NCBI GenBank assembly: GCA_016845525.1
Contig: JAERSQ010000103.1
Coordinates: forward strand, 1 to 64,000
Reading direction: 5' to 3'
DNA from: Pseudomonadota bacterium
GTDB taxonomy: Bacteria > Pseudomonadota > Gammaproteobacteria > Arenicellales > UBA868
Length of the DNA: 64,000 nt
Position numbers and translations under genes: made by a program. Shown piece by piece: positions 3,572 through 44,429 of the stretch. A model generated the notes under the pieces. That model saw nothing but the letters and a program-made list of their open reading frames with translations. It was not told the origin of the DNA and did not search any database. Position 1 is the stretch's first letter, and the number at the start of each line of letters is the position of its first letter.

Positions 3572-3656
3572 GCCGAAGTGGTGGAACTGGTAGACACGCC
3601 GTCTTGAGGGGGCGGTGGCGCAAGCCGTGCCGGTTCGAGTCCGGCCTTCGGCACCA
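3572..3656 (+). tRNA. tRNA-Leu (anticodon GAG)
   Basis: An 85-base class II tRNA with a 7-bp acceptor stem (GCCGAAG 3572-3578 with CTTCGGC 3646-3652), discriminator A and an encoded CCA at 3654-3656. The anticodon stem CCGTC/GGCGG surrounds loop TTGAGGG, with anticodon GAG at 3606-3608. A long variable arm and the T-arm GGTTCGAGTCC are visible. It lies 48 bases after secG. The following region up to 3727 holds no clear terminator or other gene. Confidence 0.97.
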
Positions 3657-3727
3657 AGATCAGAAGTTACCGGTGGAGCGCGTTCTGCTCTTTGCCGCCG
3701 TCGGTCAAGCGTCCGGGAGTGGTATTC

Positions 3728-5695
3728 ATGCGCTCTGAAAATACAGCCTGCTCGCCAATTCTAGGCTCTGCCAACGAATTGGTCTGCGTCAACGGTATCT
3801 GGAGGCAAGCTAAACAGGACTCCAGCGTTGACTACAGTGATGGGCAGGAGGAAGAGTCGATTCTGCGCGAGACTCTGGAAGGGGCGGCAGATTTATCCTG
3901 GAATTCGGCTGAGTTTGGCCCGCCGTACTCGAGTTGGGCGCAGGAATATCACCTGTCCCCCTTGCGCGCGAATTTGCTGCGGGGATTACACCTCCCGGAA
4001 GGAATCCGTGTTCTTGAAGTGGGAGCAGGCTGTGGCGCTGTGACACGGTTTCTGGGCGACCAGGGTTTTCAGGTGGATGCAGTCGAGGGCAGCACCAGTC
4101 GCGCTGCACTTGCCCGCGCGCGCTGCGCTGATCTAGACAACGTCCGCATCATTTCTGCGGACTTTCATCAATTACATCTTCCGGACGCCGGTTATGACCT
4201 CGTATTGTTCGTCGGGGTGCTCGAATATGCTCAGCGGTTTGCGCCGGACGGGTTGTCTTCCCGTGACGCCGTGATCCGGATGCTCGCCAATGCTACAACA
4301 GCACTTGCGCCGGACGGCAAAATCATCATTGCGATTGAGAATCGTCTTGGAGCTAAATATCTGGCGGGCTGGCCTGAAGATCACCTGGGCACGTCCTGGT
4401 CGGGCGTAGCCGGATACCCGGCCGGTGCAGCAGCCAAGTCAGGTATCCGGACGTTTGATCAAGCGGAATGGAAGAGCATTTTTGGGGAAATGGGTCTCCA
4501 GCACCGCAGCTTCTTTCCACTGCCGGATTACAAGTTGCCCGAAGCTTTCGTCAGCGACAGAGGGTATCTTGCACCGGGTGCGAATGCGATCTGGGGTCGA
4601 TATGTCTCAGTCAATCGGACACCCGCTTCGCCGCCATCGACGCCGGCAAGGTTTCAGCAAAACGCGCTCTACCGCGCAGGACTGCTCCCCTCCTGCGCGG
4701 ATTCCTTCGGTATCGTGGCGGCCCGTTCTGATGAGAGTCTCGAGGGAGTGATGCCCCACGACTGGATCGTTTTTAGCGTCAAATCTGAAGCGGTCGATAA
4801 AGGCCTCTGTATCGAAGCCGGGTCGAGCACGGCAGGGCGTTTTCCCGCTAGCAGTCCGGATGATCCCTCAATAATCCTGCCGCCGGGAGAGCCGATTTAC
4901 CAGTATTGGTTACGGTGTGCTGTTACCGGTGTAAATGAAGAAGATCTTTCGAAGGTGTTGGCCGGCCATCTTGCAATTGCAGCACGGTCTGGTCTGCGGG
5001 CACCGGGATGGTGTTTGCTGGTCAACGATACCGGGGAGCTAGTGCCTCAGTCATTCCCATGGCCGTCGGGTTGTGACTCAGCGCCGGCAGCGGATGACAG
5101 GTCTTGGGAGGAATCGGTATTGGACGGGTTTTTTGAATTCGCCGCGGCCGATCTTGAATTTAATGTCAGGATCGGACCATGGGATGCGCCCGGCGGACTA
5201 AAGCAACAGACCCTTCAGCGCTTGAGTGATCCGCCGGCTAGTTTGGCAGACCCGGGAAAGAAGGACTCTTTTGCTGCAATCTATTGGGCGGCGGGGGCAG
5301 CGTTTTCCGAAGAACAAAAATCTACCGTTCAGTTGTCGCAGAAAGGTAAGGAGATCCTGACTTTTTTCCTGCCGAGGTCTGCTAGGTCAGATATGTTGCT
5401 GCGTTTTGACCCGTTGGATCATGATATTGGCGGAAATAGCGTAACGGTTCAGCTCGAGTCAATGCGTCTTTATCCTGCCGATGATTCGGTTGGCGTCGAT
5501 TTGATGCCGGTATTTAAGAACGACGGCGCCTCGTCTTGCAATCAACTGCAAATCAGACCGTCCGAAAGCGGAGTGATTCTTGCTATTGCGGGAAATGATC
5601 CCTGGGTGGTTGTGGACCCGGCCTTCCTCGGGATGCCCCCCGACCTTACCCTGGTCAAGGTAGAAGCCCACCTTGACTGGGGGTCAAAAGATTAG
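3728..5695 (+). CDS. class I SAM methyltransferase with C-terminal beta-rich domain
   Basis: A 655-residue protein. Residues about 60-300 form a Rossmann-type methyltransferase: motif I VLEVGAGCGAVTRFL at 95-109, an acidic VEGS end of strand 2, a downstream ADFHQL, and LFVGVLEYAQ. IIAIENRLGAKYLAG and PLPDYKLPEAFVS are typical of methyltransferases from polysaccharide loci. Residues about 540-655 are predicted beta-rich, with LRFDPLD and a late SGVILAIAGNDPW. I prefer the ATG at 3728 (GGGAG 8 bases upstream) to an in-frame TTG at 3692. It sits between tRNA-Leu and nuoA, where a surface-polysaccharide gene is out of place. Substrate unknown; modification of the polysaccharide made by the 32-49 kb island is an inference. 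It lacks the kinase-like region seen in the giant protein at 39579. Confidence 0.75.
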   Translation: MRSENTACSPILGSANELVCVNGIWRQAKQDSSVDYSDGQEEESILRETLEGAADLSWNSAEFGPPYSSWAQEYHLSPLRANLLRGLHLPEGIRVLEVGAGCGAVTRFLGDQGFQVDAVEGSTSRAALARARCADLDNVRIISADFHQLHLPDAGYDLVLFVGVLEYAQRFAPDGLSSRDAVIRMLANATTALAPDGKIIIAIENRLGAKYLAGWPEDHLGTSWSGVAGYPAGAAAKSGIRTFDQAEWKSIFGEMGLQHRSFFPLPDYKLPEAFVSDRGYLAPGANAIWGRYVSVNRTPASPPSTPARFQQNALYRAGLLPSCADSFGIVAARSDESLEGVMPHDWIVFSVKSEAVDKGLCIEAGSSTAGRFPASSPDDPSIILPPGEPIYQYWLRCAVTGVNEEDLSKVLAGHLAIAARSGLRAPGWCLLVNDTGELVPQSFPWPSGCDSAPAADDRSWEESVLDGFFEFAAADLEFNVRIGPWDAPGGLKQQTLQRLSDPPASLADPGKKDSFAAIYWAAGAAFSEEQKSTVQLSQKGKEILTFFLPRSARSDMLLRFDPLDHDIGGNSVTVQLESMRLYPADDSVGVDLMPVFKNDGASSCNQLQIRPSESGVILAIAGNDPWVVVDPAFLGMPPDLTLVKVEAHLDWGSKD

Positions 5696-5755: not shown

Positions 5756-6157
5756 TTGGTCTTCCGATTTCGGCTGCTTTTGGCAACGTTTCCCAGTCGA
5801 GTGCTCGCAAATTATCTTCCCGTACTCCTGTTCTTGGTAACAGGAATAGTCATTGGCGTCGTCGCGCTTGCGGCGGGTCGCGTATTGAGTCCCCGTAACC
5901 CGTATCCCGCGAAGCTGTCGGCCTATGAGTGTGGTTTCGAGGCGTTTGAGGACGCCAGAATGAAATTTGACATTCGTTACTATCTTGTGGCGATTCTTTT
6001 CATTATCTTTGATCTTGAAATCGCGTTTCTTTTCCCCTGGGCCATTGTTTTGGATGAGATTGGGGTATTTGGTTTCTGGGCGATGATGATCTTTCTCGCG
6101 ATTCTTGTCGTGGGGTTTATTTATGAGTGGATGAAAGGAGCCCTGGAGTGGGAGTGA
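5756..6157 (+). CDS. nuoA: NADH-quinone oxidoreductase subunit A
   Basis: First gene of the complex I operon; a three-helix membrane subunit next to the quinone site. The 133 residues contain the conserved loop [20 protein letters not shown] and the acidic helix [11 protein letters not shown]. The start is TTG at 5756, preceded at good spacing by GGGGGAG (5741-5747). A GTG at 5801 would give the more usual N-terminus ([11 protein letters not shown]) but lacks a good ribosome site, so the TTG is favoured. Gap to nuoB is 6 bases. Confidence 0.93.
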
Positions 6158-33382: not shown

Positions 33383-34342
33383 ATGTCGCCTATGGATGAT
33401 GACTTTCTCAGCGGGCTCCGTGCCAAGCGGGTCCTGGTAGTGGGCGACACGATGCTCGACCGTTATTGGATTGGCGATGTGACCCGTGTGTCGCCCGAGG
33501 CGCCAGTGCCGATTGTGAATATCGGAGAGGTTAAAGAATGTGCGGGAGGTGCAGGCAATGTAGCGGCGAACATCGCTTCTCTTGGTGCCAACTGCGAATT
33601 AGTATCATTTATTGGTGATGACGATGCCGGGCGTCGTTTGAGTGAGTTGTTAGCGAACGCGGGGGTGGATCGGCACTTTCACATCGACCCGCAGGGACGT
33701 ACCACTGAAAAACTCAGGATCGTGTCCCGGAACCAGCAGCTCCTTCGGGCGGATTTCGAGTCGCGCCCATCGACCCAGTTACTCGAGCAAAGTGTCGCCG
33801 ATTACCGGGAGATCAGCCAGAACGTTGATTCGATCGTTATCTCGGACTATGGCAAGGGCGGGCTGGCGTATATCGAGCAGATGATCCAGGTCGCGAGGGA
33901 CCGTGAGATTCCGGTTATTGTGGATCCCAAAGGAGCTGACTATGCCCGCTACCGGGGCGCCACTTTGGTTACGCCGAACCGTGATGAGTTTGCCTTGGCC
34001 ACCGGCATTACAACCGATCATCCGGGGTTTTCGGACACCGCACAGAATCTGGTTCAGCAAGCGGATCTAACCGGTCTGTTGGTCACTCGGGGAGATGAGG
34101 GAATGACGCTCTTTCTCGCATCAGGGGAGATCATCCATCGGGACGCAACTGCCCGGGAAGTGTTTGATGTGAGTGGAGCAGGCGATACCGTAGTTGCGGT
34201 AATTTCTGTGGGTATTGCTGCAAGCCTCGCTTGGGCTGACTGCATTAAGTTAGCCACTCTCGGCGCCAGTGCCGTCGTGGGCCGGTTTGGAACAAGCGTG
34301 GTTCGCCAGTCGGATCTGATGCCTGCCAGTCAAGGGGGGTGA
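33383..34342 (+). CDS. rfaE1: D-glycero-beta-D-manno-heptose-7-phosphate kinase (RfaE domain I type)
   Basis: PfkB-family sugar kinase that forms heptose-1,7-bisphosphate on the way to ADP-heptose for the LPS inner core. 319 residues with CAGGAGNVAANIASLGA near the N-terminus and the catalytic DVSGAGDTVVAV near residue 255. E. coli HldE adds a C-terminal adenylyltransferase domain; here the protein ends after the kinase, so the nucleotidyltransferase must be encoded elsewhere. hldD follows 6 bases later, supporting the heptose assignment. Confidence 0.92.
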   Translation: MSPMDDDFLSGLRAKRVLVVGDTMLDRYWIGDVTRVSPEAPVPIVNIGEVKECAGGAGNVAANIASLGANCELVSFIGDDDAGRRLSELLANAGVDRHFHIDPQGRTTEKLRIVSRNQQLLRADFESRPSTQLLEQSVADYREISQNVDSIVISDYGKGGLAYIEQMIQVARDREIPVIVDPKGADYARYRGATLVTPNRDEFALATGITTDHPGFSDTAQNLVQQADLTGLLVTRGDEGMTLFLASGEIIHRDATAREVFDVSGAGDTVVAVISVGIAASLAWADCIKLATLGASAVVGRFGTSVVRQSDLMPASQGG

Positions 34343-34348
34343 CTGAAG

Positions 34349-35359
34349 ATGATCATCGTCACCGGAGGGGCCGGATTTATTGGATCGAACTTGATTGCGA
34401 CGCTGAATTCGCTCGATCGCGCGGACATAATTCTGGTAGATGATCTCTCGGATGCGGCGAAGATTCAAAACATCAGTGACCTTGCTATTGCGGATTATCT
34501 CGACAAAGATGATTTTCGAAAAGAGATCATAAGTTCGGGGCTGCCCGGAAACGTAAGCGCAGTATTTCATCAGGGAGCCTGCTCCGATACGATGGCGAGC
34601 GATGGTCGATACGTCATGGAGGTGAACTACGAATATTCGAAGGTCCTGCTCGGCGCGTGCATCGAGAAGGGGGTATCCATGATCTATGCTTCTTCGGCAT
34701 CTGTTTACGGCTCCAACGGGCCGTTTGATGAAGCACTTGAAAATGAACGCCCACTGAATGCTTACGCCTATTCGAAGACACTATTCGATCGCTACGCGTT
34801 TGCACGCCGCCGGGGCCTTTCATCCCAGATTGTGGGGCTAAGATACTTCAACGTCTATGGTCCTCGCGAGGCGCATAAAGGCCGCATGGCCTCTGTCGCC
34901 TGGCATCTGACGCATCAATACTTCGAGACGGGCTCCGTCCGGCTGTTTGAGGGTTCGGGCGGCTATCAGGCCGGTGAGCAAAGGCGTGACTTCATTCACG
35001 TGGATGACGTTATTCAGGCAAATCTGTATTTCTTGAATAATCCAGAGAAAAGCGGAATCTTTAACGTCGGTACAGGAAGCGCCCAAAGCTTCAATGATGT
35101 CGCTTTAGCGGTTATCAACGCGTGCCGGAAAATCGATGGCGAGCCCCGCTTGTCGCTCGAAGACGCTTGTCGCGATGGGTTACTAAGTTACTTCCCAATG
35201 CCCGAAGCGTTGCAAGGGAAGTACCAGAGTTTTACCGAAGCCAATATTGACCGCTTGAAGGCGGCCGGTTTTTCAAACCCCTGCGATAACGTTGAACAAG
35301 GCGTAGGACGATATGCAGGCGGGCTGTACTCCGAGCTCAAGGGGGAGACCCAAGAATGA
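34349..35359 (+). CDS. hldD: ADP-L-glycero-D-manno-heptose 6-epimerase
   Basis: Extended SDR enzyme that inverts C6 of ADP-heptose. 336 residues: [15 protein letters not shown] at the N-terminus, HQGACSDT (diagnostic for the family), YASSASVYG and the catalytic YAYSKTLFDRYA, then RYFNVYGPREAHKGRMAS. Overlaps rmlB by 4 bases, so it is in the same operon. Confidence 0.96.
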   Translation: MIIVTGGAGFIGSNLIATLNSLDRADIILVDDLSDAAKIQNISDLAIADYLDKDDFRKEIISSGLPGNVSAVFHQGACSDTMASDGRYVMEVNYEYSKVLLGACIEKGVSMIYASSASVYGSNGPFDEALENERPLNAYAYSKTLFDRYAFARRRGLSSQIVGLRYFNVYGPREAHKGRMASVAWHLTHQYFETGSVRLFEGSGGYQAGEQRRDFIHVDDVIQANLYFLNNPEKSGIFNVGTGSAQSFNDVALAVINACRKIDGEPRLSLEDACRDGLLSYFPMPEALQGKYQSFTEANIDRLKAAGFSNPCDNVEQGVGRYAGGLYSELKGETQE

Positions 35360-36480
35360 CCGCGCACCCCTCCATTTCAACGCCAACCCAGATACTCCCG
35401 GAGCCCAATCAGTGCTGCGTCATGGTGACCGGCGGGGCTGGATTTATCGGTTCGGCCGTGATTCGTCAATTGATCGCTGATCAATATGCAGCGATTATCA
35501 ACGTTGACGTTCTGACTTATGCGGGAAACGAGGCAACGTTGGCCAAGGAGTCGGCCTATCCGGGATACCGGCATGAGAAAACCGACATCCGTGAGGCGGG
35601 CGCGATCCGGGAATTGGTGGATCGTTATCGCCCCGATGCCATCATGCATTTAGCCGCGGAGTCTCACGTGGATCGGTCCATCGATGGCCCAGGCGATTTC
35701 ATCAACACAAATATCCATGGCACCTATAATCTTCTTGAAGCGGTCCGGGCAGAAGATGAAAGGCGCGCAACTGAATCGGGTGCTCAAGCCGCTAGAATCC
35801 GCTTTCATCATATTTCTACAGATGAGGTCTTTGGTTCCCTTGGGGCGACGGGTCTGTTTCATGAGGATTCGTCCTATCAGCCGAATTCACCGTATTCGGC
35901 GAGCAAGGCGGCCTCTGACCACTTGGTCCGGGCCTGGGGGGAAACGTTTGGCATCAATGCCGTGGTGTCTAACTGTTCGAACAATTACGGTCCGTATCAA
36001 TACCCCGAGAAGCTGGTTCCCGTGGTAATTCATCAGGCCATGGCAGGAAACCCGATTCCTGTTTACGGAAAGGGGGACAATATTCGCGATTGGCTCTATG
36101 TCGATGACCACGCCAGGGCACTCGTCATGGTCATGAGCCGGGGCCAATCGGGCCGCACTTACAACATCGGGGGCGACGCCGAGAGAACGAATCTTGAAGT
36201 GGTGGAGACGATCTGTCGGGAATTGGGTGGGATTTCGCCTCGGAGGGAAGGTCGATATTCAGATCTGATCGCCTTTGTTAAAGACCGGCCAGGCCACGAT
36301 TTCCGGTATGCGATCGATGCTTCGCGGATCAAAAATGAGCTTGGGTGGCAACCGCAAGAGCGGTTTGAATCCGGGATTCAGCGGACGATCGAGTGGTATT
36401 TGAATAATCAGCAATGGGTCGAGGAAGTCGGAGGCAAACAATCGGCATCGACACGTTTAGGCCTTGGAGGTTCAAGATGA
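35356..36480 (+). CDS. rmlB: dTDP-glucose 4,6-dehydratase
   Basis: Converts dTDP-glucose to dTDP-4-keto-6-deoxyglucose, precursor of dTDP-rhamnose and other deoxysugars. 374 residues: [14 protein letters not shown] about residue 25, [12 protein letters not shown], and [12 protein letters not shown]. The N-terminus is about 20 residues longer than usual. Its stop overlaps the rmlA start by 4 bases; rmlC and rmlD are not in the window. Confidence 0.96.
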
Positions 36481-37361
36481 GAGGGCTGATTCTGGCGGGC
36501 GGAGCGGGAACCCGGTTGGCGCCGGTAACACAGGTGGTCTCCAAGCAGCTTTTGCCGGTCTACGATAAACCGATGATTTACTACCCGCTTAGCGTCCTGA
36601 TGTTGGCGGGTATCCGGGACATCATGTTGATTTCTACGCCGCAGGATACACCGCGGTTTCAGGAACTGCTGGGAACCGGAGAGCAATGGGGCTTAAACCT
36701 CGCCTATGCGGTCCAGCCCTCTCCGGACGGCCTTGCGCAGGCACTGATCATCGGCTCCGAATTTGTCGGGAACGGGCCTTGCTCGCTCATCCTCGGAGAT
36801 AACATTTTTCACGGCGATCAATTATCCGATGCCGTCAGGCGTGCCGCCGCGCTGAAGGCCGGGGCGACGGTATTCGCCTATCCTGTAAATGATCCCGAGC
36901 GTTACGGGGTGGTGAGCTTCGACGATCAGGGTAGAGCGCAAACACTTGAAGAAAAACCGACAAAACCGCGTTCACGATACGCGGTGACGGGCCTGTATTT
37001 TTACGATCAGAACGCGGCTGACTATGCACGATCGTTGAAACCGTCGGATCGCGGTGAACTGGAAATCACCGACCTTAACCGGGTTTATCTTGAGCAAGGC
37101 AGCCTCAACGTCGAGTTGCTGGGACGGGGTACCGCCTGGCTTGATACCGGTACCCATGAGTCTCTCCTGCAGGCTTCGGTGTTTATCGAGACGCTCGAGA
37201 CGCGTCAGGGAATGAAGATCTGTTGTCCCGAGGAGATCGCATTCCGTATGGACTACATCGGGATCGAAGCTCTTGCAGAGCTGGCCTCAAACCTAGGCAA
37301 GAGCACGTATGGAAAGTATCTTCGTGAGTTGGTGACGGAGCATCATTCGGGCGACTCTTAA
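36477..37361 (+). CDS. rmlA: glucose-1-phosphate thymidylyltransferase
   Basis: Makes dTDP-glucose, the substrate of RmlB. 294 residues with [38 protein letters not shown] and [11 protein letters not shown] 36477 is fixed by a perfect GGAGG 6 bases upstream and the ATGA overlap with rmlB; in-frame sequence back to 36414 lies within rmlB and is not used. Confidence 0.97.
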
Positions 37362-37376
37362 GGCATCCTTAGCACA

Positions 37377-38222
37377 GTGCGGAGAGAGCTTTTGCGATCA
37401 ACTACCACGCGCCATCGCGCGGATCCGCTCTATATTCCCGGGAGCATTGTCGAACACCGCTTTGTCATTGGCCAGCTCGCAAAGCGGGCGATTCTGGGGC
37501 GATACCGCGGGACAGTGCTGGGTTTGCTATGGTCTCTATTAACGCCACTTCTGTTGCTTGCTGTCTATACCTTCGTTTTTGGCACGATCCTCCAGGTCCG
37601 GTGGGTTTCGCAGAGTGGAGGCAATGCGGAATTTGCTGCTATCCTGTTTTCCGGTATGTTGGTCCACGGCATCCTGGCGGAGTGCCTCACACAGGCCTCA
37701 ACCCTGATTGTCTCCAACCCGCAATACGTTAAAAAAGTCGTCTTCCCTTTGGAGGCGTTGCCCTGGGTCACCGTGATCAGCGCGTTCTTTCAGGGTGTAA
37801 TCAGCACAGGAATCCTTCTAGCGTATCTCTTTTTCGTCCAGGGAAGCATTCCCTGGACGGCGGTGCTTTTCCCAATTCCGTTGTTTGTTCTTGCCTTCGT
37901 TTGTATCGCCGTCGGTTGGCTTATCTCGGCGACGGCGGTGTACCTCAAGGATATTGCGCAGATGATGGGCCTGCTCAGCACGGTGCTTTTTTTCATGGCG
38001 CCCATTCTTTACCCCAAGACCGCGTTGCCTGTCGAGTTCCAAAACCTGCTCTACCTTAATCCTCTTACCTACATCATCGAACAGTTTAGGGCGGTCGTGT
38101 TGTGGGGTGAACTCCCCAACTGGAATGGATTAGGCCTGTATGGAGTTGCTTCAGTCGTGATTGCCTGGATGTCGCTCGCTTGGTTCCAAAGAACGCGAAG
38201 AGGATTCGCAGATGTCCTCTGA
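37377..38222 (+). CDS. wzm: polysaccharide ABC exporter, permease subunit (Wzm type)
   Basis: ABC-2 type membrane subunit that, with Wzt, moves a finished lipid-linked polysaccharide across the inner membrane. 281 residues, about six membrane segments, with the amphipathic RAILGRYRGTVLGLLWSLL typical of the family before the first helix. The start is GTG 37377; a TTG at 37392 with GGAGAG upstream is an alternative. The last 11 bases overlap wzt. Confidence 0.93.
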   Translation: MRRELLRSTTTRHRADPLYIPGSIVEHRFVIGQLAKRAILGRYRGTVLGLLWSLLTPLLLLAVYTFVFGTILQVRWVSQSGGNAEFAAILFSGMLVHGILAECLTQASTLIVSNPQYVKKVVFPLEALPWVTVISAFFQGVISTGILLAYLFFVQGSIPWTAVLFPIPLFVLAFVCIAVGWLISATAVYLKDIAQMMGLLSTVLFFMAPILYPKTALPVEFQNLLYLNPLTYIIEQFRAVVLWGELPNWNGLGLYGVASVVIAWMSLAWFQRTRRGFADVL

Positions 38223-39582
38223 GTCGTCAATCAGTGTAACGGGGCTGGGCAAGGATTACCGAATTTACGGCAGGCCGATCGACCGGATCCGCGAGATGTA
38301 TTCGGTCCGCGGGCGCACCTACCATTCGGTCTTTACGGCATTGAATGACGTCAGCTTTGACGTCGTTTCGGGAGAGACGGTCGGGATTATCGGCCCAAAT
38401 GGTTCCGGAAAATCCACCCTGCTTGAGATGGTATGCGGTACGCTCACTCCAACCCGGGGCACAGTAGCGGTGAGCGGCAGATTGGCCGCGCTTTTGGAGC
38501 TCGGCGCGGGCTTTAATCCCGCGTTTTCTGGGCGGGAGAATGTTTATCTGAATGCAGCTTTGTTGGGCATTTCCAGAGAAGAGGTTGAGGATCGTTTCGA
38601 GGATATCGTCGAGTTTGCCGGCATCGGAGAGTTTATCGAGCACCCGGTCAGTACCTACTCCAGCGGTATGTATGTCCGGCTTGCTTTTGCAACTGCTGTG
38701 AATACGGACCCAGACATCCTGATTGTCGACGAAGCTCTCGCCGTCGGTGATATTCGATTTCAGCGAAAGTGTTTCCGTCGTTTTCAGGAGATGCAAAAAG
38801 CAGGAAAAACGATTCTTTTTGTTACCCATTCGGTAGACCTTGTTCAAGCCCACTGCTCACGTGCGATTTATTTGAAGTCTGGAAATATCCGGTCAAAAGG
38901 CGAGCCTAAGGCCGTGATCCAGGACTATCTGGAAGATCTTTTTGGATCAGAGCGTTCAGCTGCAACTCAACCTCAGTTAATGGAATCGCCGGCGTCGCCT
39001 CCATCAGGCACTATGGAAGAAGACAGGGCCGGGGTCGGCGGGAAGATTAGAGTATCTTCAGGAAAAACGCGAAGCCCCGTGAGCGTAAAGTGCCCGCCGG
39101 ACCTTTGCCCAACTCGGCCGCTTTACAATTCGAATGAGTATCGCTGGGGTGATCAGCGGGTCGCGATCTATGACTATGCGCTACATGGGGAGAATGGACC
39201 CGTAAGAGGCGGGTTCGAGCGCGGACAAAAAGTGGGCCTTGATCTCTCCGTGTTCTTTGTTGAGAACGTCAAAGATCTGATCATCGGATTCACGGTGAAA
39301 ACGGTTGATGGTCGAACTGTTTTTGGCGCGAATACCCGAGAAAGGGGTATTGAGGTGCCAAGTCTCGCGGCAGGCTGTGAGATCCTCGTGCGCTTCGACT
39401 TCATTTGTGCTCTTATTCCCGGGGAATACTTTCTTTCGATTGGTATCGCGCAGGATGATCTCAGTCGTGACAATGTCGCCGTAGATCGAAGGTACGATCT
39501 CATTCATATGCCGGTGCGGGGTGCGCCGGGCGACTTTGGGGTGGCAGATCTTGGCCTCGCGATCGCGTTCCCCCATTCATGA
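38212..39582 (+). CDS. wzt: polysaccharide ABC exporter, ATPase with C-terminal carbohydrate-binding domain (Wzt type)
   Basis: 456 residues from ATG 38212 (AGAGG 9 bases upstream). Residues 1-250 are the ATPase: Walker A GPNGSGKST at 61-69, signature YSSGMYVRLAFA at 149-160, Walker B ILIVDEALAVGD at 169-180. A polar linker (about 255-300) leads to a beta-sandwich region (about 305-456; RWGDQRVAIYDYAL, FGANTRERG, PGEYFLSIGI) matching the Wzt C-terminal domain, which in E. coli O8/O9a recognises the capped end of the O-antigen. Export of a terminally marked chain is therefore inferred. Coupled to wzm (11-base overlap) and to the giant protein (ATGA). Confidence 0.93.
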   Translation: MSSESSISVTGLGKDYRIYGRPIDRIREMYSVRGRTYHSVFTALNDVSFDVVSGETVGIIGPNGSGKSTLLEMVCGTLTPTRGTVAVSGRLAALLELGAGFNPAFSGRENVYLNAALLGISREEVEDRFEDIVEFAGIGEFIEHPVSTYSSGMYVRLAFATAVNTDPDILIVDEALAVGDIRFQRKCFRRFQEMQKAGKTILFVTHSVDLVQAHCSRAIYLKSGNIRSKGEPKAVIQDYLEDLFGSERSAATQPQLMESPASPPSGTMEEDRAGVGGKIRVSSGKTRSPVSVKCPPDLCPTRPLYNSNEYRWGDQRVAIYDYALHGENGPVRGGFERGQKVGLDLSVFFVENVKDLIIGFTVKTVDGRTVFGANTRERGIEVPSLAAGCEILVRFDFICALIPGEYFLSIGIAQDDLSRDNVAVDRRYDLIHMPVRGAPGDFGVADLGLAIAFPHS

Positions 39583-42500
39583 ATGACAGCGCTAACAATC
39601 CGGACACGCCATTGAGCTTCGGTCTCCTCCCTGAGAAGTTGCGTCGGGCAGTCAACCGGTTCCCTGATTTGTCTGGGATTGCAGGGGAGGCTCAACCCCT
39701 AGGCGCAGCGGTCGAGGGACTACCTCACCTTCGGCTCGAGTCAGCGGGAGTGTCTGATTTGCTGGGTTTGCCAGAGCACCCTTCGGTGCTGCTCTGGAAC
39801 TGGGAAGGGCTTGTGATGGCGCGCCAACTTCTGGATGACGCAAGTCGAGTCCGTATTTGTGATTCCAGAGCCGAATATCTGGAAGTTGCACGTTTGCTGT
39901 GCGGCGATGACAGTATTCACTCACCGGGCGAGCCGTTTACAGATATCCCAGTTCCTGATGTTGTCTTTGTTGGCAGCAAAAGCAACGATTCGGAAGATCT
40001 CTTCGATGGACTAGGGCAAATTCTGATAAAAACCCTTGATCAGGGCGGGGTGATTATGGCGGCCGAGCCACAATCCTCACGCCACCCGATCACATCCATT
40101 CTCCGCGCCAACAGCCCGGAAGGCGACTCACTGGGTGAAGAGAGTATCCTGGTGCTGCCGGATGTTGATAATCCAGAACTGCTGATCCGCCAAACCTTCC
40201 TATATGAAACCCCGGAAGCGTGGAGACATCTCGCCGGTTATGTCGATGAATTCGGGGGGGCACGTTTCCCCGGCTCGGTTCCCATTAGGCACGTGTGGTC
40301 ACTGTTTGAGGAATCGCGAAGATTTCCGCTTCAGGATGTTTCGAAATACCAGGTCTTCTGGAGGCGCGACAAAGCCGAGCGCGACCCTATAGAGCTTGAC
40401 TTTATCCATCAGTCGATCGGGCAACGTGTGCGCCAGTATTGGACGAAAACGGTCAAGCCCCGCGGTGAAACGATAGTTGAGCGGCGACCCATATTTGAAA
40501 CAGAGAATCTATCGGAGGGGGGAAGGGAAGAACAGAAAGATATTGAGCACGTGTTGGACCGGGAAGACTACAAAACCGGTCCGACCTTGGATGAGTTATG
40601 GTTGGATGCGCTTCGGCTAAACGATGTTGAACGATTCAAAGATCTAGCACAAAGGTTTTTCGAATTTCTTGAGGCCATTACGAAGGGCCAAACTACGGTA
40701 TGGGTCGACCTGCTTCCCGATAATATTCTGGTAGACGACGACAACTTCATCCCGATAGATCAGGAGTGGCGTTGTCCGGCCAAGCGACTTAGCTTAGACG
40801 CCATGTACTGCCGGGCGCTGGTCTATTTCCTAAGTCGAAGCGCCCTCGCACTAGACAGCCTACCTGCTGCTAGGCGGTGGGGCACCACTCATTATGAGTT
40901 TTTAGTTGGTGCGTGTAGCGAAGTGGGGGTTGCCCCAGATCCGGCGCTCACCGCGGTCGAAGAGTTCGAAAGGATGTTTCGAAGGGAGACTCTGCTAAGT
41001 TTTGGTGTTATCGAAATAACCAGCATGCTTGAACGTCGGTTTGGTGATCAGGACGCAGTTGAACTAGTCGGGTCGCTCGGGGGAGATGAAGACTCAGAGC
41101 GATCACACGCTGTGATTCCGTTTCCTTCCAGCTCGAGCGGATCTGGATGTCGGTTTGTCTTCCGTTTTTCCAGCTACCCAGGAATTCCCGAGGCACTCGA
41201 TCTGATTTTTCCATCGTGGCTGGGATTGCCTCGAATCAAGGCGGGAACAGTGACGAGCGCTGGCAATACTTTCCCCTTGGGGGGAGCCGATACGAAAGAA
41301 ATTGATGTCGGGACCCTGGCAGGCGTCTTTAAGGGACGTTTTTCCAATCGGGCGAGAGGAGTGAGAGTCGCAATTGACTCAGGGTTGCTGATTTCGGGTC
41401 CCGATGTCTCGTACGTGATTGACCTTGAAATGGTATGGCCCAAGATGGTCTTTGGTCCTGATGCAGATGAGAGATTGGTTCGCGGACTTTGGGGCAAAGA
41501 GGGTATGCTCGACGCGGCCCGGAATCGCGTCTTGGAGCTCGAATCGGAACTTGCGCAAAGTGAGAAAAAGCATAGCCTTAAACACGCCGAGCTCGAGCTT
41601 CTAAAGTCATCCAAGGCCTGGAGGGTTGCAGAGGTTCTTCGAAAAATCTTCTTTGGATGGAGAAAGCCTCAGGACGAGGTACGCAATCTTAGTGCTATTG
41701 AGCAACTCTCTCAGAAGCCTGCATCTCCGACGGAACGGTTTTCGTACCTGACTGAAGTCGGACAGAATAATGTCGACTTAGATATTACAGCTACCCCCGC
41801 CGGGCCGTTGATTTCGGTAGTGATTCCGGTTTACAACACGCCGAAGGCTTGGTTGGCGGATGCCGTTAATTCAGTCCTAGGGCAGTCCTACCCCCATTGG
41901 CACTTGATTCTGGCCAACGACGGCTCTACGAACGTAGGCACACGAGAATTCCTGGATAACCTCGATGACCCAAGAGTCACGAAGATTCAGCTCACCAGAA
42001 GTGCGGGAATTTCAGTGGCCACGCAGATGGCGGTTGACGGAGCACACGGCGAATTTATCGCACTGATGGATCATGACGACATGCTGGCGCCAAGCGCCCT
42101 TCAGAAAGTGGCCGAGAAGATCGCGGATCATAACGCTGATGTTGTCTATACCGATGAAACCACATTCAGCGATAGGACAGAGCAAAAACACGACGGCTAT
42201 TTTGGTCTGCCGCATCTGAAGCCGGCTTATTCGCCGGATCTGTTGTTATGCCACAACTACATTACGCATTTGCTGGTGATCAGGAAGAATCTGATCGATC
42301 AGGTCGGAGGATTTCGGCCTGAATTCGACGGGGCGCAGGACTTCGATCTGCTTTTGCGGGTGACAGAGCAGACAGATCGTGTGATTCATATCTCTGAGCC
42401 GCTGTACCACTGGCGCCAGTCCGTCCAGTCTACGAGCCTTGATACAGGTGCCAAGCCATTGGCGCACATGCGCGGTTGCCAGGCTGTTACCGAAGCGCTG

Positions 42501-43424
42501 GATCGTCGAGGTATCAAGGGAGAGGTGCTGACTGCCAACGGGCCGCATTTTTTTCGGGTCCGGCGGAAAATTATTAATCAGCCCCTGGTGGAGATCGTTA
42601 TACCGTTTCGTGACCAACCCCTCATGCTTCGGAAGTGCATCGACGCGCTCTTAGCAAATACCCGCTATCCGCAATACCGAATCCTCGGTGTGGACAACGG
42701 AAGCACGGAGACCTTGACCCACGAGTTGATGTCCCAATATCAGTCAGAAACCGACCACGTTCGTTTTGCCAGGCTGGACGTCCCGTTTAACTTTTCTCAA
42801 ATTGTCAATTTTGGCGTGCACAATGCCCGGGGTGCCCATGTGGTGCTCATGAATAATGATATCGAGGTGATCAATAGCGATTGGCTCGAGGCGATGCTTG
42901 AGCATTCTCAACGCCCTGAGGTCGGGGCCGTCGGGGCCAAACTGTACTATCCCGACGACACCATTCAGCACGCCGGCATCGCGATAGGAATCGGAACTTA
43001 TGCGGGTCATCCCCATAAACATGTGGAGGGCGGGTATTCGGGGTATCTGAATAGGCTCCACAATATTCAAAACGTATCTGCCGTGACGGGTGCAATGCTG
43101 ATGGTGAAGCGCGATTTATACAATGCTCTGGGCGGATTCGACGAGCATCTGTTTGAAATTGCCTGCAATGATGTTGATTTTTGTCTCCGCTTGCGAAGTC
43201 AGGGCCTGTTGAATATTTTTACGCCGTATGCCCGAGCGTATCACCATGAATCTGTCAGTCGCGGATATGAAGATACGCCGGAAAAGAAAGCCCGGTTTGA
43301 AAAAGAGGTCGATGCGTTCAGAAAGCGTCACGGCGAGGTCCTCGCCAAAGGCGACCCGTACTACAATCGTCACCTACGCTTAGACACGGAAGCAGTTTTG
43401 GCGCGCCCCTGGAGCGAGGCATAG
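39579..43424 (+). CDS. giant multidomain polysaccharide protein: MT-like, kinase-like, beta-rich, coiled coil, two GT2 domains
   Basis: 1281 residues. About 55-170: a Rossmann-like part without a readable SAM motif I, probably a decayed methyltransferase. About 215-480: a kinase-like part with VDLLPDNIL (Asp377, Asn382) and IDQEW (Asp394, Glu396), recalling the HxDxxxxN/DxE arrangement of aminoglycoside-kinase folds. About 510-625: beta-rich, ending near SGLLISGPDVSY. About 645-685: charged heptads (LELESELAQSEKKH). About 743-990: GT2 domain 1 (ISVVIPVYN, MDHDD at 830-834). About 1003-1250: GT2 domain 2 (VEIVIPFRD, MNNDIEV from 1091). It starts inside wzt, so it is made with the exporter. The order recalls WbdD, which caps O9a chains and carries a coiled coil, but here polymerising-type transferases are fused on. 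Acceptor and sugars are unknown. Confidence 0.85.
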   Translation: MNDSANNPDTPLSFGLLPEKLRRAVNRFPDLSGIAGEAQPLGAAVEGLPHLRLESAGVSDLLGLPEHPSVLLWNWEGLVMARQLLDDASRVRICDSRAEYLEVARLLCGDDSIHSPGEPFTDIPVPDVVFVGSKSNDSEDLFDGLGQILIKTLDQGGVIMAAEPQSSRHPITSILRANSPEGDSLGEESILVLPDVDNPELLIRQTFLYETPEAWRHLAGYVDEFGGARFPGSVPIRHVWSLFEESRRFPLQDVSKYQVFWRRDKAERDPIELDFIHQSIGQRVRQYWTKTVKPRGETIVERRPIFETENLSEGGREEQKDIEHVLDREDYKTGPTLDELWLDALRLNDVERFKDLAQRFFEFLEAITKGQTTVWVDLLPDNILVDDDNFIPIDQEWRCPAKRLSLDAMYCRALVYFLSRSALALDSLPAARRWGTTHYEFLVGACSEVGVAPDPALTAVEEFERMFRRETLLSFGVIEITSMLERRFGDQDAVELVGSLGGDEDSERSHAVIPFPSSSSGSGCRFVFRFSSYPGIPEALDLIFPSWLGLPRIKAGTVTSAGNTFPLGGADTKEIDVGTLAGVFKGRFSNRARGVRVAIDSGLLISGPDVSYVIDLEMVWPKMVFGPDADERLVRGLWGKEGMLDAARNRVLELESELAQSEKKHSLKHAELELLKSSKAWRVAEVLRKIFFGWRKPQDEVRNLSAIEQLSQKPASPTERFSYLTEVGQNNVDLDITATPAGPLISVVIPVYNTPKAWLADAVNSVLGQSYPHWHLILANDGSTNVGTREFLDNLDDPRVTKIQLTRSAGISVATQMAVDGAHGEFIALMDHDDMLAPSALQKVAEKIADHNADVVYTDETTFSDRTEQKHDGYFGLPHLKPAYSPDLLLCHNYITHLLVIRKNLIDQVGGFRPEFDGAQDFDLLLRVTEQTDRVIHISEPLYHWRQSVQSTSLDTGAKPLAHMRGCQAVTEALDRRGIKGEVLTANGPHFFRVRRKIINQPLVEIVIPFRDQPLMLRKCIDALLANTRYPQYRILGVDNGSTETLTHELMSQYQSETDHVRFARLDVPFNFSQIVNFGVHNARGAHVVLMNNDIEVINSDWLEAMLEHSQRPEVGAVGAKLYYPDDTIQHAGIAIGIGTYAGHPHKHVEGGYSGYLNRLHNIQNVSAVTGAMLMVKRDLYNALGGFDEHLFEIACNDVDFCLRLRSQGLLNIFTPYARAYHHESVSRGYEDTPEKKARFEKEVDAFRKRHGEVLAKGDPYYNRHLRLDTEAVLARPWSEA

Positions 43425-43469: not shown

Positions 43470-44429
43470 ATGTCAAATCTAGCGGTATCGGTCATCCTAC
43501 CGGTCTTTAACGAGGCGGACAATCTGGAGCCACTGACCAGGGACATTCTGGCGGCTCTGGAGGATACCGGGAGGTCCTATGAGATCATCTTCATAGATGA
43601 TGGCAGTACAGATCGGTCTCTGGAGGTGCTGACCGCGCTGCAAAGAACCCACTCGTCGATCGTGGTGATTGAGTTTCGACGAAATTTCGGACAAACCGCG
43701 GCGCTTGCTGCGGGGCTTCGCGCCGCTGAAGGAGAAGTTGTGGTGACGATGGACGCGGACCGCCAGAACGACCCACAAGATATTGGGATGCTGCTGCGGG
43801 AAATCGATCAGGGAATGGATCTGGTCTGTGGGTGGCGGCACGAGCGCAAAGACGGATTGTGGCTCCGATTACTCCCATCGCGCGCTGCCAACTGGCTGAT
43901 TTCGACAACCACGGATGTCAAACTCCATGACTACGGCTGCACGCTAAAGGCCATGCGCAAGGACGTAGCAAAGAACCTGCGTCTGTATGGAGAAATGCAT
44001 CGTTTCATACCGGCCATTGCCAGTTGGTATGGGGTTCGCATGAGCGAAGTCAAGGTGCGGCATCATCCCCGGACCGCCGGCGTATCGAAGTACGGGTTAT
44101 CGCGCACATTCCGAGTGCTGCTTGATCTGCTTACGGTGAAGTTCCTGATGGGCTATTCTGCGCGGCCTATCCAGTTTTTTGGCAGTATTGGGCTCGCGTG
44201 CACCGTCGCCGGTGGGAGTGTACTCGGATGGCTTTTCATTGAGCGAGTCTTCCTTGGGATAGCGCTCGCCGGTAGACCCGCTGTTCTGGCCGGTATTGTC
44301 TTGACACTAATCGGGCTTCAATTTGTTACGGTGGGACTCCTTGCCGAGCTCCAGGCTCGAACCTACCACGAGTCCCAGGACAAACCCATCTACGAGATTC
44401 GCCATACTTATAGAGGCCGAGAATCCTAA
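43470..44429 (+). CDS. membrane-anchored GT2 glycosyltransferase (DPM1/GtrB/ArnC type)
   Basis: 319 residues. N-terminal GT2 domain (about 1-230) with SVILPVFNEADNL, FIDDGSTDRSLEVL and MDADRQNDPQDI, then two C-terminal membrane helices (about 232-258 and 266-290). Proteins of this build transfer a sugar from a nucleotide to undecaprenyl phosphate, for later use outside the membrane (GtrB, ArnC). No GtrA-type flippase or GtrC-type transferase adjoins it, so its partner is unknown. It lies 45 bases after the giant gene. Confidence 0.9.
   Translation: MSNLAVSVILPVFNEADNLEPLTRDILAALEDTGRSYEIIFIDDGSTDRSLEVLTALQRTHSSIVVIEFRRNFGQTAALAAGLRAAEGEVVVTMDADRQNDPQDIGMLLREIDQGMDLVCGWRHERKDGLWLRLLPSRAANWLISTTTDVKLHDYGCTLKAMRKDVAKNLRLYGEMHRFIPAIASWYGVRMSEVKVRHHPRTAGVSKYGLSRTFRVLLDLLTVKFLMGYSARPIQFFGSIGLACTVAGGSVLGWLFIERVFLGIALAGRPAVLAGIVLTLIGLQFVTVGLLAELQARTYHESQDKPIYEIRHTYRGRES

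Follow-up and report, generated by a model that had tools for sequence, protein, structure and literature searches.

Reciprocally decayed paralogues of a fused methyltransferase-kinase enzyme as a candidate two-protein terminator of O-polysaccharide chains

Gene content and domain architecture of the two loci

The window, by which we mean the entire stretch of 64,000 nucleotides analysed here, carries two genes, P0001 and the gene for a giant protein, which are located about 34 kb apart on a single contig (Table 1). The genome to which it belongs (G000) is 88% complete with 7% contamination, and the genomes used throughout are MAGs with a completeness of 60-95%. P0001 occupies a slot between tRNA-Leu and nuoA. 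Its ORF extends from an ATG at 3728 to a stop codon ending at 5695 and specifies 655 residues, with an in-frame TTG at 3692, upstream of this ATG, providing an alternative start that would add 12 aa. The N-terminal part contains a class I methyltransferase (Pfam PF13489, residues 79-258, 1.1e-10) with an intact SAM motif I, VLEVGAGCGAVTRFLG, in agreement with the preliminary description of this DNA, which had reported a 655-residue protein with a clear SAM motif. The SAM-site residues are Y36, Y74, G99, G101, E120 and Y167. In the degenerate kinase domain that follows, the sequence at the position of the kinase loop is PGWCLLVNDTGELVPQSFPW, as against VDLLPDNILVDDDNFIPIDQEW in the giant. In the AlphaFold model of P0001 (pLDDT 80) the kinase region comprises four strands and two helices at the position of the N-lobe, whereas the catalytic-loop strands seen in the model of the giant N-terminal part (pLDDT 84) are missing.

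The giant is encoded in an O-polysaccharide (O-PS) cluster. A heptose-7-phosphate kinase domain and an ADP-heptose epimerase are encoded at 33383-35359, directly upstream of the rmlB/rmlA genes of this cluster. The SAM loop of the giant reads VLLWNWEGLVMARQLL where P0001 has VLEVGAGCGAVTRFLG, and a later part of its methyltransferase domain has been deleted. Pfam gave no match in the giant ahead of the GT2 domains (residue ~745), and because neither the kinase nor the decayed methyltransferase was matched, kinase-only giants are hard to recognise. The best match of the N-terminal model in a Foldseek search was WbdD (4azt, E=4e-5, with low TM-scores), covering both the methyltransferase and the kinase. 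The long helix that the predicted model shows after the β domain is probably a coiled-coil ruler. The GT2 pair is probably a polymerase.

Table 1. Features of the two loci in the window, and positions of a mirror-image arrangement in related genomes
Feature	Position	Strand	Remarks
tRNA-Leu(GAG)	3572..3656	+	upstream border of P0001 slot
P0001	3728..5695	+	655 aa; stand-alone methyltransferase, paralogue of fused methyltransferase-kinase chain terminator
P0001 methyltransferase domain	3728..4762	+	residues 1-345; six SAM-site residues all present
P0001 degenerate kinase domain	4763..5242	+	residues 346-505; catalytic-loop D and N and Mg-binding D lost
P0001 β domain	5243..5692	+	residues 506-655; position of CBM-like domain in K. 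pneumoniae O7 ORF6
nuoA	5756..6157	+	downstream border of P0001 slot
rmlB-type dTDP-glucose 4,6-dehydratase	35356..36480	+	above TIGR01181 curated cut-off
rmlA, glucose-1-phosphate thymidylyltransferase	36414..37361	+	above TIGR01207 curated cut-off
Wzm-type ABC-2 export permease	37377..38222	+	PF01061
Wzt export ATPase	38161..39582	+	C-terminal Wzt_C domain, PF14524, 1.6e-26
Giant protein	39579..43424	+	1281 aa; decayed methyltransferase, kinase, β domain, coiled coil, two GT2
Giant decayed methyltransferase domain	39579..40148	+	residues 1-190; motif I replaced by VLLWNWEGLVMARQL
Giant kinase domain	40371..41003	+	residues 265-475; K293, D377, N382, D394, E396, W397 intact
Giant β domain	41004..41453	+	residues 476-625
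Giant long helix	41457..41648	+	from residue 627; helix 627-663 closes predicted model
Giant two GT2 glycosyltransferase domains	41799..43421	+	Pfam; start at residue ~745
GT2 glycosyltransferase	43470..44429	+	directly 3' of giant; conserved neighbour
f10/g15 mirror split	L240-L248 (G049, G072, G073, G061, G054); L082, L083 (G059)		methyltransferase-only gene next to wzt

Kinship through a family of fused enzymes and reciprocal loss of active sites

Used as queries against 60 related genomes, P0001 and the N-terminal part of the giant converged on an identical set of ORFs from other genera and families. These homologues are single polypeptides of ~750-1400 aa that unite the methyltransferase, kinase and β domains in one chain, often with an additional coiled coil and two GT2 domains. 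They resemble residues 1-350 of P0001 at 40-45% identity (about 43%) and the giant from ~187 to 480. In profile comparisons with hhalign, the P0001 family aligned to the fused family over 645 columns (6e-113) and the giant N-terminal part over 598 columns (1.6e-40), while the direct match between P0001 and the giant was confined to the methyltransferase part (3e-6). The decayed methyltransferase domain of the giant matched P0001 at 1.5e-7 and the fused family at 1.1e-11. The kinase remnant of P0001, taken alone, gave a weak score (0.004), yet it is collinear. Matches from VIA-align were to single-domain methyltransferases and are uninformative on the kinase and β parts. Taken together, these sequence comparisons establish the shared descent of P0001 and the giant.

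The preliminary description had proposed a common C-terminal pattern in the two proteins, pairing SGVILAIAGND with SGLLISGPD, and had suggested a profile alignment of the β domains as a check. The two motifs lie ~10 columns apart in alignments to the fused family, i.e. out of register, and the direct profile comparison of the β domains gave E=0.05, the same as column-shuffled controls; direct similarity was accordingly dropped as stand-alone evidence. What stands of the proposed C-terminal similarity is an indirect relationship, in that the β domain of P0001 matches the fused family at E=1.7e-19 and that of the giant at E=9e-6, so that the two are related via the fused family as an intermediate. 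The two proteins had also been regarded as split pieces of one system. Their complementarity is upheld, with both aligning near full length to the fused family, but a single gene cut in two was rejected, since a methyltransferase-type, a kinase-type and a β domain are all still present in either of them. P0001 and the giant are thus two paralogous copies that have decayed reciprocally, and the comparisons support their interpretation as complementary parts of one methyltransferase-kinase system.

The reciprocal pattern recurs among orthologues of both proteins. In the residue table, the SAM-site Y, Y, G, G, E and Y are kept in 15 of 15 P0001-type proteins, and the kinase D, N or D in none of these 15. 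Conversely, all nine giants keep the kinase K, D, N, D, E and W, and none of the nine retains a single one of the six SAM-site residues, which bears out the earlier characterization of the giant as having a kinase-like part and a decayed methyltransferase. P0001 had been described as its reverse; this is correct with regard to the intact SAM site and the lost kinase residues, with the qualification that a degenerate kinase domain is still retained. The pattern holds clade-wide and is no accident of a single sequence. Most fused homologues retain both residue sets, the exceptions being found in splits of the f10/g15 type and in G035 (see below).

Estimates of dN/dS were below 1 in all domains, namely 0.11-0.20 for the P0001 methyltransferase domain, 0.21-0.44 for its pseudokinase, 0.17-0.19 for the giant kinase, 0.23-0.29 for its pseudo-methyltransferase and 0.09-0.10 for its GT2 domains. 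The live domains had the lowest values in most, not all, comparisons. All domains are accordingly under purifying selection, which in most comparisons is weaker for the decayed ones.

Phyletic distribution, gene order and other splits

The gene order tpiA-secG-tRNA-Leu-P0001-nuoA is common to the genera g1, g3 and g4. P0001 had been called an orphan, a label that can no longer be maintained: orthologues are present in the nuoA slot of 17 of the 20 genomes of the window's genus and of two other genera (g3 and g4), and an 18th genome of the genus (G009) has a C-terminal P0001 fragment before nuoA. The accompanying statement that nuoA normally follows the tRNA is confirmed by relatives devoid of the gene, in which only 90-355 nt lie between tRNA-Leu and nuoA. 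Such an empty slot is seen in the f1 genera g2, g5 and g6 and in the families f2, f7 and f9, among them the three f1 genomes whose full-length fused enzyme is encoded at another locus, and no f1 genome examined has a P0001-type gene together with an intact fused enzyme. In f8/g13, an intact fused enzyme is located directly before nuoA in all three genomes (G039, G086 and G087), and in G039 tRNA-Leu lies upstream of it. The stretch between this tRNA-Leu and the fused enzyme (L074:1874-4490) spans ~2.6 kb with small unassigned ORFs only; the corresponding junction is tight in the window's genus. In the phylogenetic trees, the P0001-type proteins form one clade (support 100/99), which is grouped weakly with the f8 slot enzymes (75/54), and the giants form another (100/100). 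P0001 may have entered the slot through one ancestral insertion accompanied by losses or through more than one event.

The location of P0001 directly downstream of a tRNA gene, together with the empty slot in many relatives, is compatible with P0001 being the cargo of a mobile element integrated at tRNA-Leu, which the preliminary description had regarded as the likely landing site. This scenario is largely refuted and we regard it as extremely improbable. The 3' end of tRNA-Leu is unduplicated, being present as a single copy in the window; the slot holds one gene, and no integrase-like gene was recognised there. Neither of these two hallmarks of tRNA-targeted integrative elements, the duplicated tRNA 3' end in the window and the integrase in the slot, was thus seen. 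Furthermore, P0001 is conserved at the same place in 18 of the 20 genomes of the genus, counting the fragment, and in two further genera, indicating vertical conservation in three genera, and a related intact enzyme occupies the same slot in another family, f8.

The slot also invites the interpretation that P0001 has taken on some unrelated function next to the complex I operon, or acts on some other glycan, with its kinship to the giant being historical only. It is alone in a housekeeping region where co-transcription with nuoA-N is possible, and a promoter-like site ahead of nuoA scores no higher than expected by chance. The retention of the SAM-site residues and of the terminator domain order in P0001 makes such a recruitment quite improbable, and, as an intact fused enzyme uses the same slot in f8/g13, the position does not imply a function connected with complex I.

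The giant adjoins wzt, in the order wzm-wzt-giant-GT2, in every genome of the genus in which the region is assembled. In those without the giant, either the contig ends at or inside its gene or no wzt was recovered; that the giant is truly absent from genomes of the genus was hence mostly rejected. In the distribution comparison that the preliminary description had called for, the occurrence of P0001 and the giant is linked within the genus when contig breaks are allowed for. Since the β domains are related via an intermediate and the occurrence of the genes is linked, neither of the two outcomes that would have spoken against the earlier proposal, dissimilar β domains and independently distributed genes, was clearly found. 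G004 matches the window in having the two genes on a single contig, in the same order and at a distance of 34 kb. G006 (91% complete) has P0001, but wzt and the downstream GT could not be recovered from it. The GT half of the giant lies at a contig edge in G021 and G026 (g3), running off the contig in the former; the cluster was not found in G022, and the kinase half was not recovered in G021 and G022, both of which have P0001. G017 has two divergent giants (L098:2623-6480 and L099:494-4396), which lie on different short contigs and are both accompanied by a wzt and a GT2 gene; this points either to two O-PS clusters or to a bin of mixed origin.

A separation of the two activities is also seen in f10/g15, where 13 genomes have a methyltransferase-only ORF of 409-433 aa along with a separate ORF of 800-1450 aa that matches mainly the kinase and β part. 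At the loci inspected, the methyltransferase-only gene lies inside the wzm-wzt cluster (Table 1) and the kinase-bearing giant, which has a decayed methyltransferase, is elsewhere, constituting a mirror image of the window. The sister genera of f10/g15 have a fused enzyme. Tree tests rejected a single origin of all methyltransferase-only forms (p=0.003), while a single origin of all giants with a decayed methyltransferase was not rejected (p=0.27). One may tentatively envisage, as a rather doubtful extension of our proposal below, an obligate two-protein terminator with the dead domains as partner scaffolds, which would have arisen at least twice with mirrored gene positions in the window's genus and f10/g15.

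G035 encodes one protein with intact SAM residues and altered kinase residues (L071:6309-8321) and another with an intact kinase that has lost the SAM tyrosines (L072:6360-8702), possibly a third complementary case. Separately, ORFs of ~270 aa that match the β/CBM part of the terminator family only (G051:C280:35409-35876, G081:C61:55716-56180 and G083:C199:8586-9050) are possible stand-alone glycan-binding proteins.

A proposed division of labour and comparison with known terminators

As reciprocally decayed paralogues of a terminator of the O7 ORF6 type, P0001 and the giant would, on balance, probably work as a two-protein terminator. The giant, encoded directly after wzm-wzt, would keep its kinase at the far end of the coiled coil and, once the chain reaches it, would phosphorylate the non-reducing end of the growing O-polysaccharide, which would stop elongation by the giant's own GT2 domains. 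P0001 would then methylate the terminal phosphate in trans, and the capped end would be read by the C-terminal domain of Wzt, leading to export of the chain. The pseudokinase of P0001 and the pseudo-methyltransferase of the giant are probably scaffolds that hold the proteins together or bind glycan. We infer the cooperation of the two proteins, and likewise the substrate, the methylation in trans, the physical interaction and the role of the dead domains. Genes cooperating in one step are usually adjacent, and the 34 kb between P0001 and the giant count against this model, as do the results for G006, G021 and G022 described above, the weak score of the P0001 kinase remnant taken alone and the incompleteness of the MAGs. 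In E. coli O9a, phosphorylation is sufficient to stop chain growth, with methylation as the subsequent step, and the Wzt_C domain recognises capped chain ends (PMC3482155); hence, methylation need not be carried out by the ruler protein itself. Given that the kinase has stayed on the coiled coil of the giant and the methyltransferase has been freed, we propose phosphorylation by the giant and methylation in trans by P0001.

The main rival interpretation is that P0001 is a methyltransferase-only terminator that works by itself and modifies a sugar hydroxyl, either of the same glycan or of a different one, with the giant capping chains with an unmethylated phosphate, i.e. shared descent without cooperation. 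Such terminators exist, as exemplified by the WbdD of E. coli O8, which directly methylates a sugar hydroxyl (PMC3482155), and both the termination of O9a chains by phosphorylation alone and the P0001-type genes of G021 and G022, for which the kinase half was not recovered, could be accommodated in this manner. In the case of G021, however, the GT half of a giant is at the contig edge. Moreover, P0001 has retained all six SAM residues along with the remainder of the fused-type methyltransferase domain, its ancestor belonged to a phosphate-methylating type of enzyme, and no f1 genome was seen to combine a P0001-type gene with an intact fused enzyme. On these grounds, independent action of P0001 appears unlikely.

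In known methylphosphate terminators, the kinase and the methyltransferase are in one coiled-coil protein. A natural split, as proposed here for P0001 and the giant, would separate the two steps and allow a direct test of whether only the kinase needs the length-setting ruler. It would also be a clear-cut case of duplicates losing complementary functions, with the pseudoenzymes retained under selection, and would give a likely function to a conserved, unannotated gene beside nuoA.

Among characterized systems, the closest architecture is that of ORF6 of K. pneumoniae O7, which adds a phosphate and then a methyl group to O-3 of the terminal rhamnose (PMC11231755). ORF6 consists of a methyltransferase, an unannotated kinase, an Ig-like/CBM domain, a coiled coil and two GT2 modules; its D441A variant lacks kinase activity, and orthologues with and without the C-terminal GT modules have been reported (PMC11231755). 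The fused homologues have an identical domain order, and ORF6 Y28, Y66, G91, G93, E112, Y158 and D441 correspond, with an offset of 4-6, to the invariant Y33, Y71, G96, G98, E117, Y164 and D445 of the fused enzyme in L074, a comparison based on published residue positions and architecture. In ORF6 both activities reside on one polypeptide, whereas in the window they are on two, each with the other domain decayed. The SAM-binding residues of the ORF6 type (Y, Y, GxG, E, Y) are present in P0001 and not in the giant; the kinase with its catalytic Asp (D441) is present in the giant and not in P0001, so that the combination is found only in the pair jointly. At the position of the Ig-like/CBM domain after the kinase, both proteins have a β domain with a putative role in carbohydrate binding, and only the giant has a coiled coil with GT2 modules behind it and lies beside wzm-wzt, the Wzt of which has a C-terminal domain. 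Because neither protein retains both active sites, the pair constitutes a split variant, not a plain member of the ORF6-type family.

The WbdD of E. coli O9a and K. pneumoniae O3 is a bifunctional kinase-methyltransferase terminator with a coiled coil (PMC3482155; PDB 4azs, 4azt). Unlike the window pair, it has neither a β/CBM domain nor GT domains and is not split; PDB sequence searches with single sequences or profiles gave no match to it, and the O7 terminator kinase has been reported to differ from WbdD in sequence and structure (PMC11231755). With respect to the O8 WbdD, P0001 differs in descending from a phosphate-methylating type and in coexisting with a kinase-only paralogue. The open literature searched contained no report of a split terminator.
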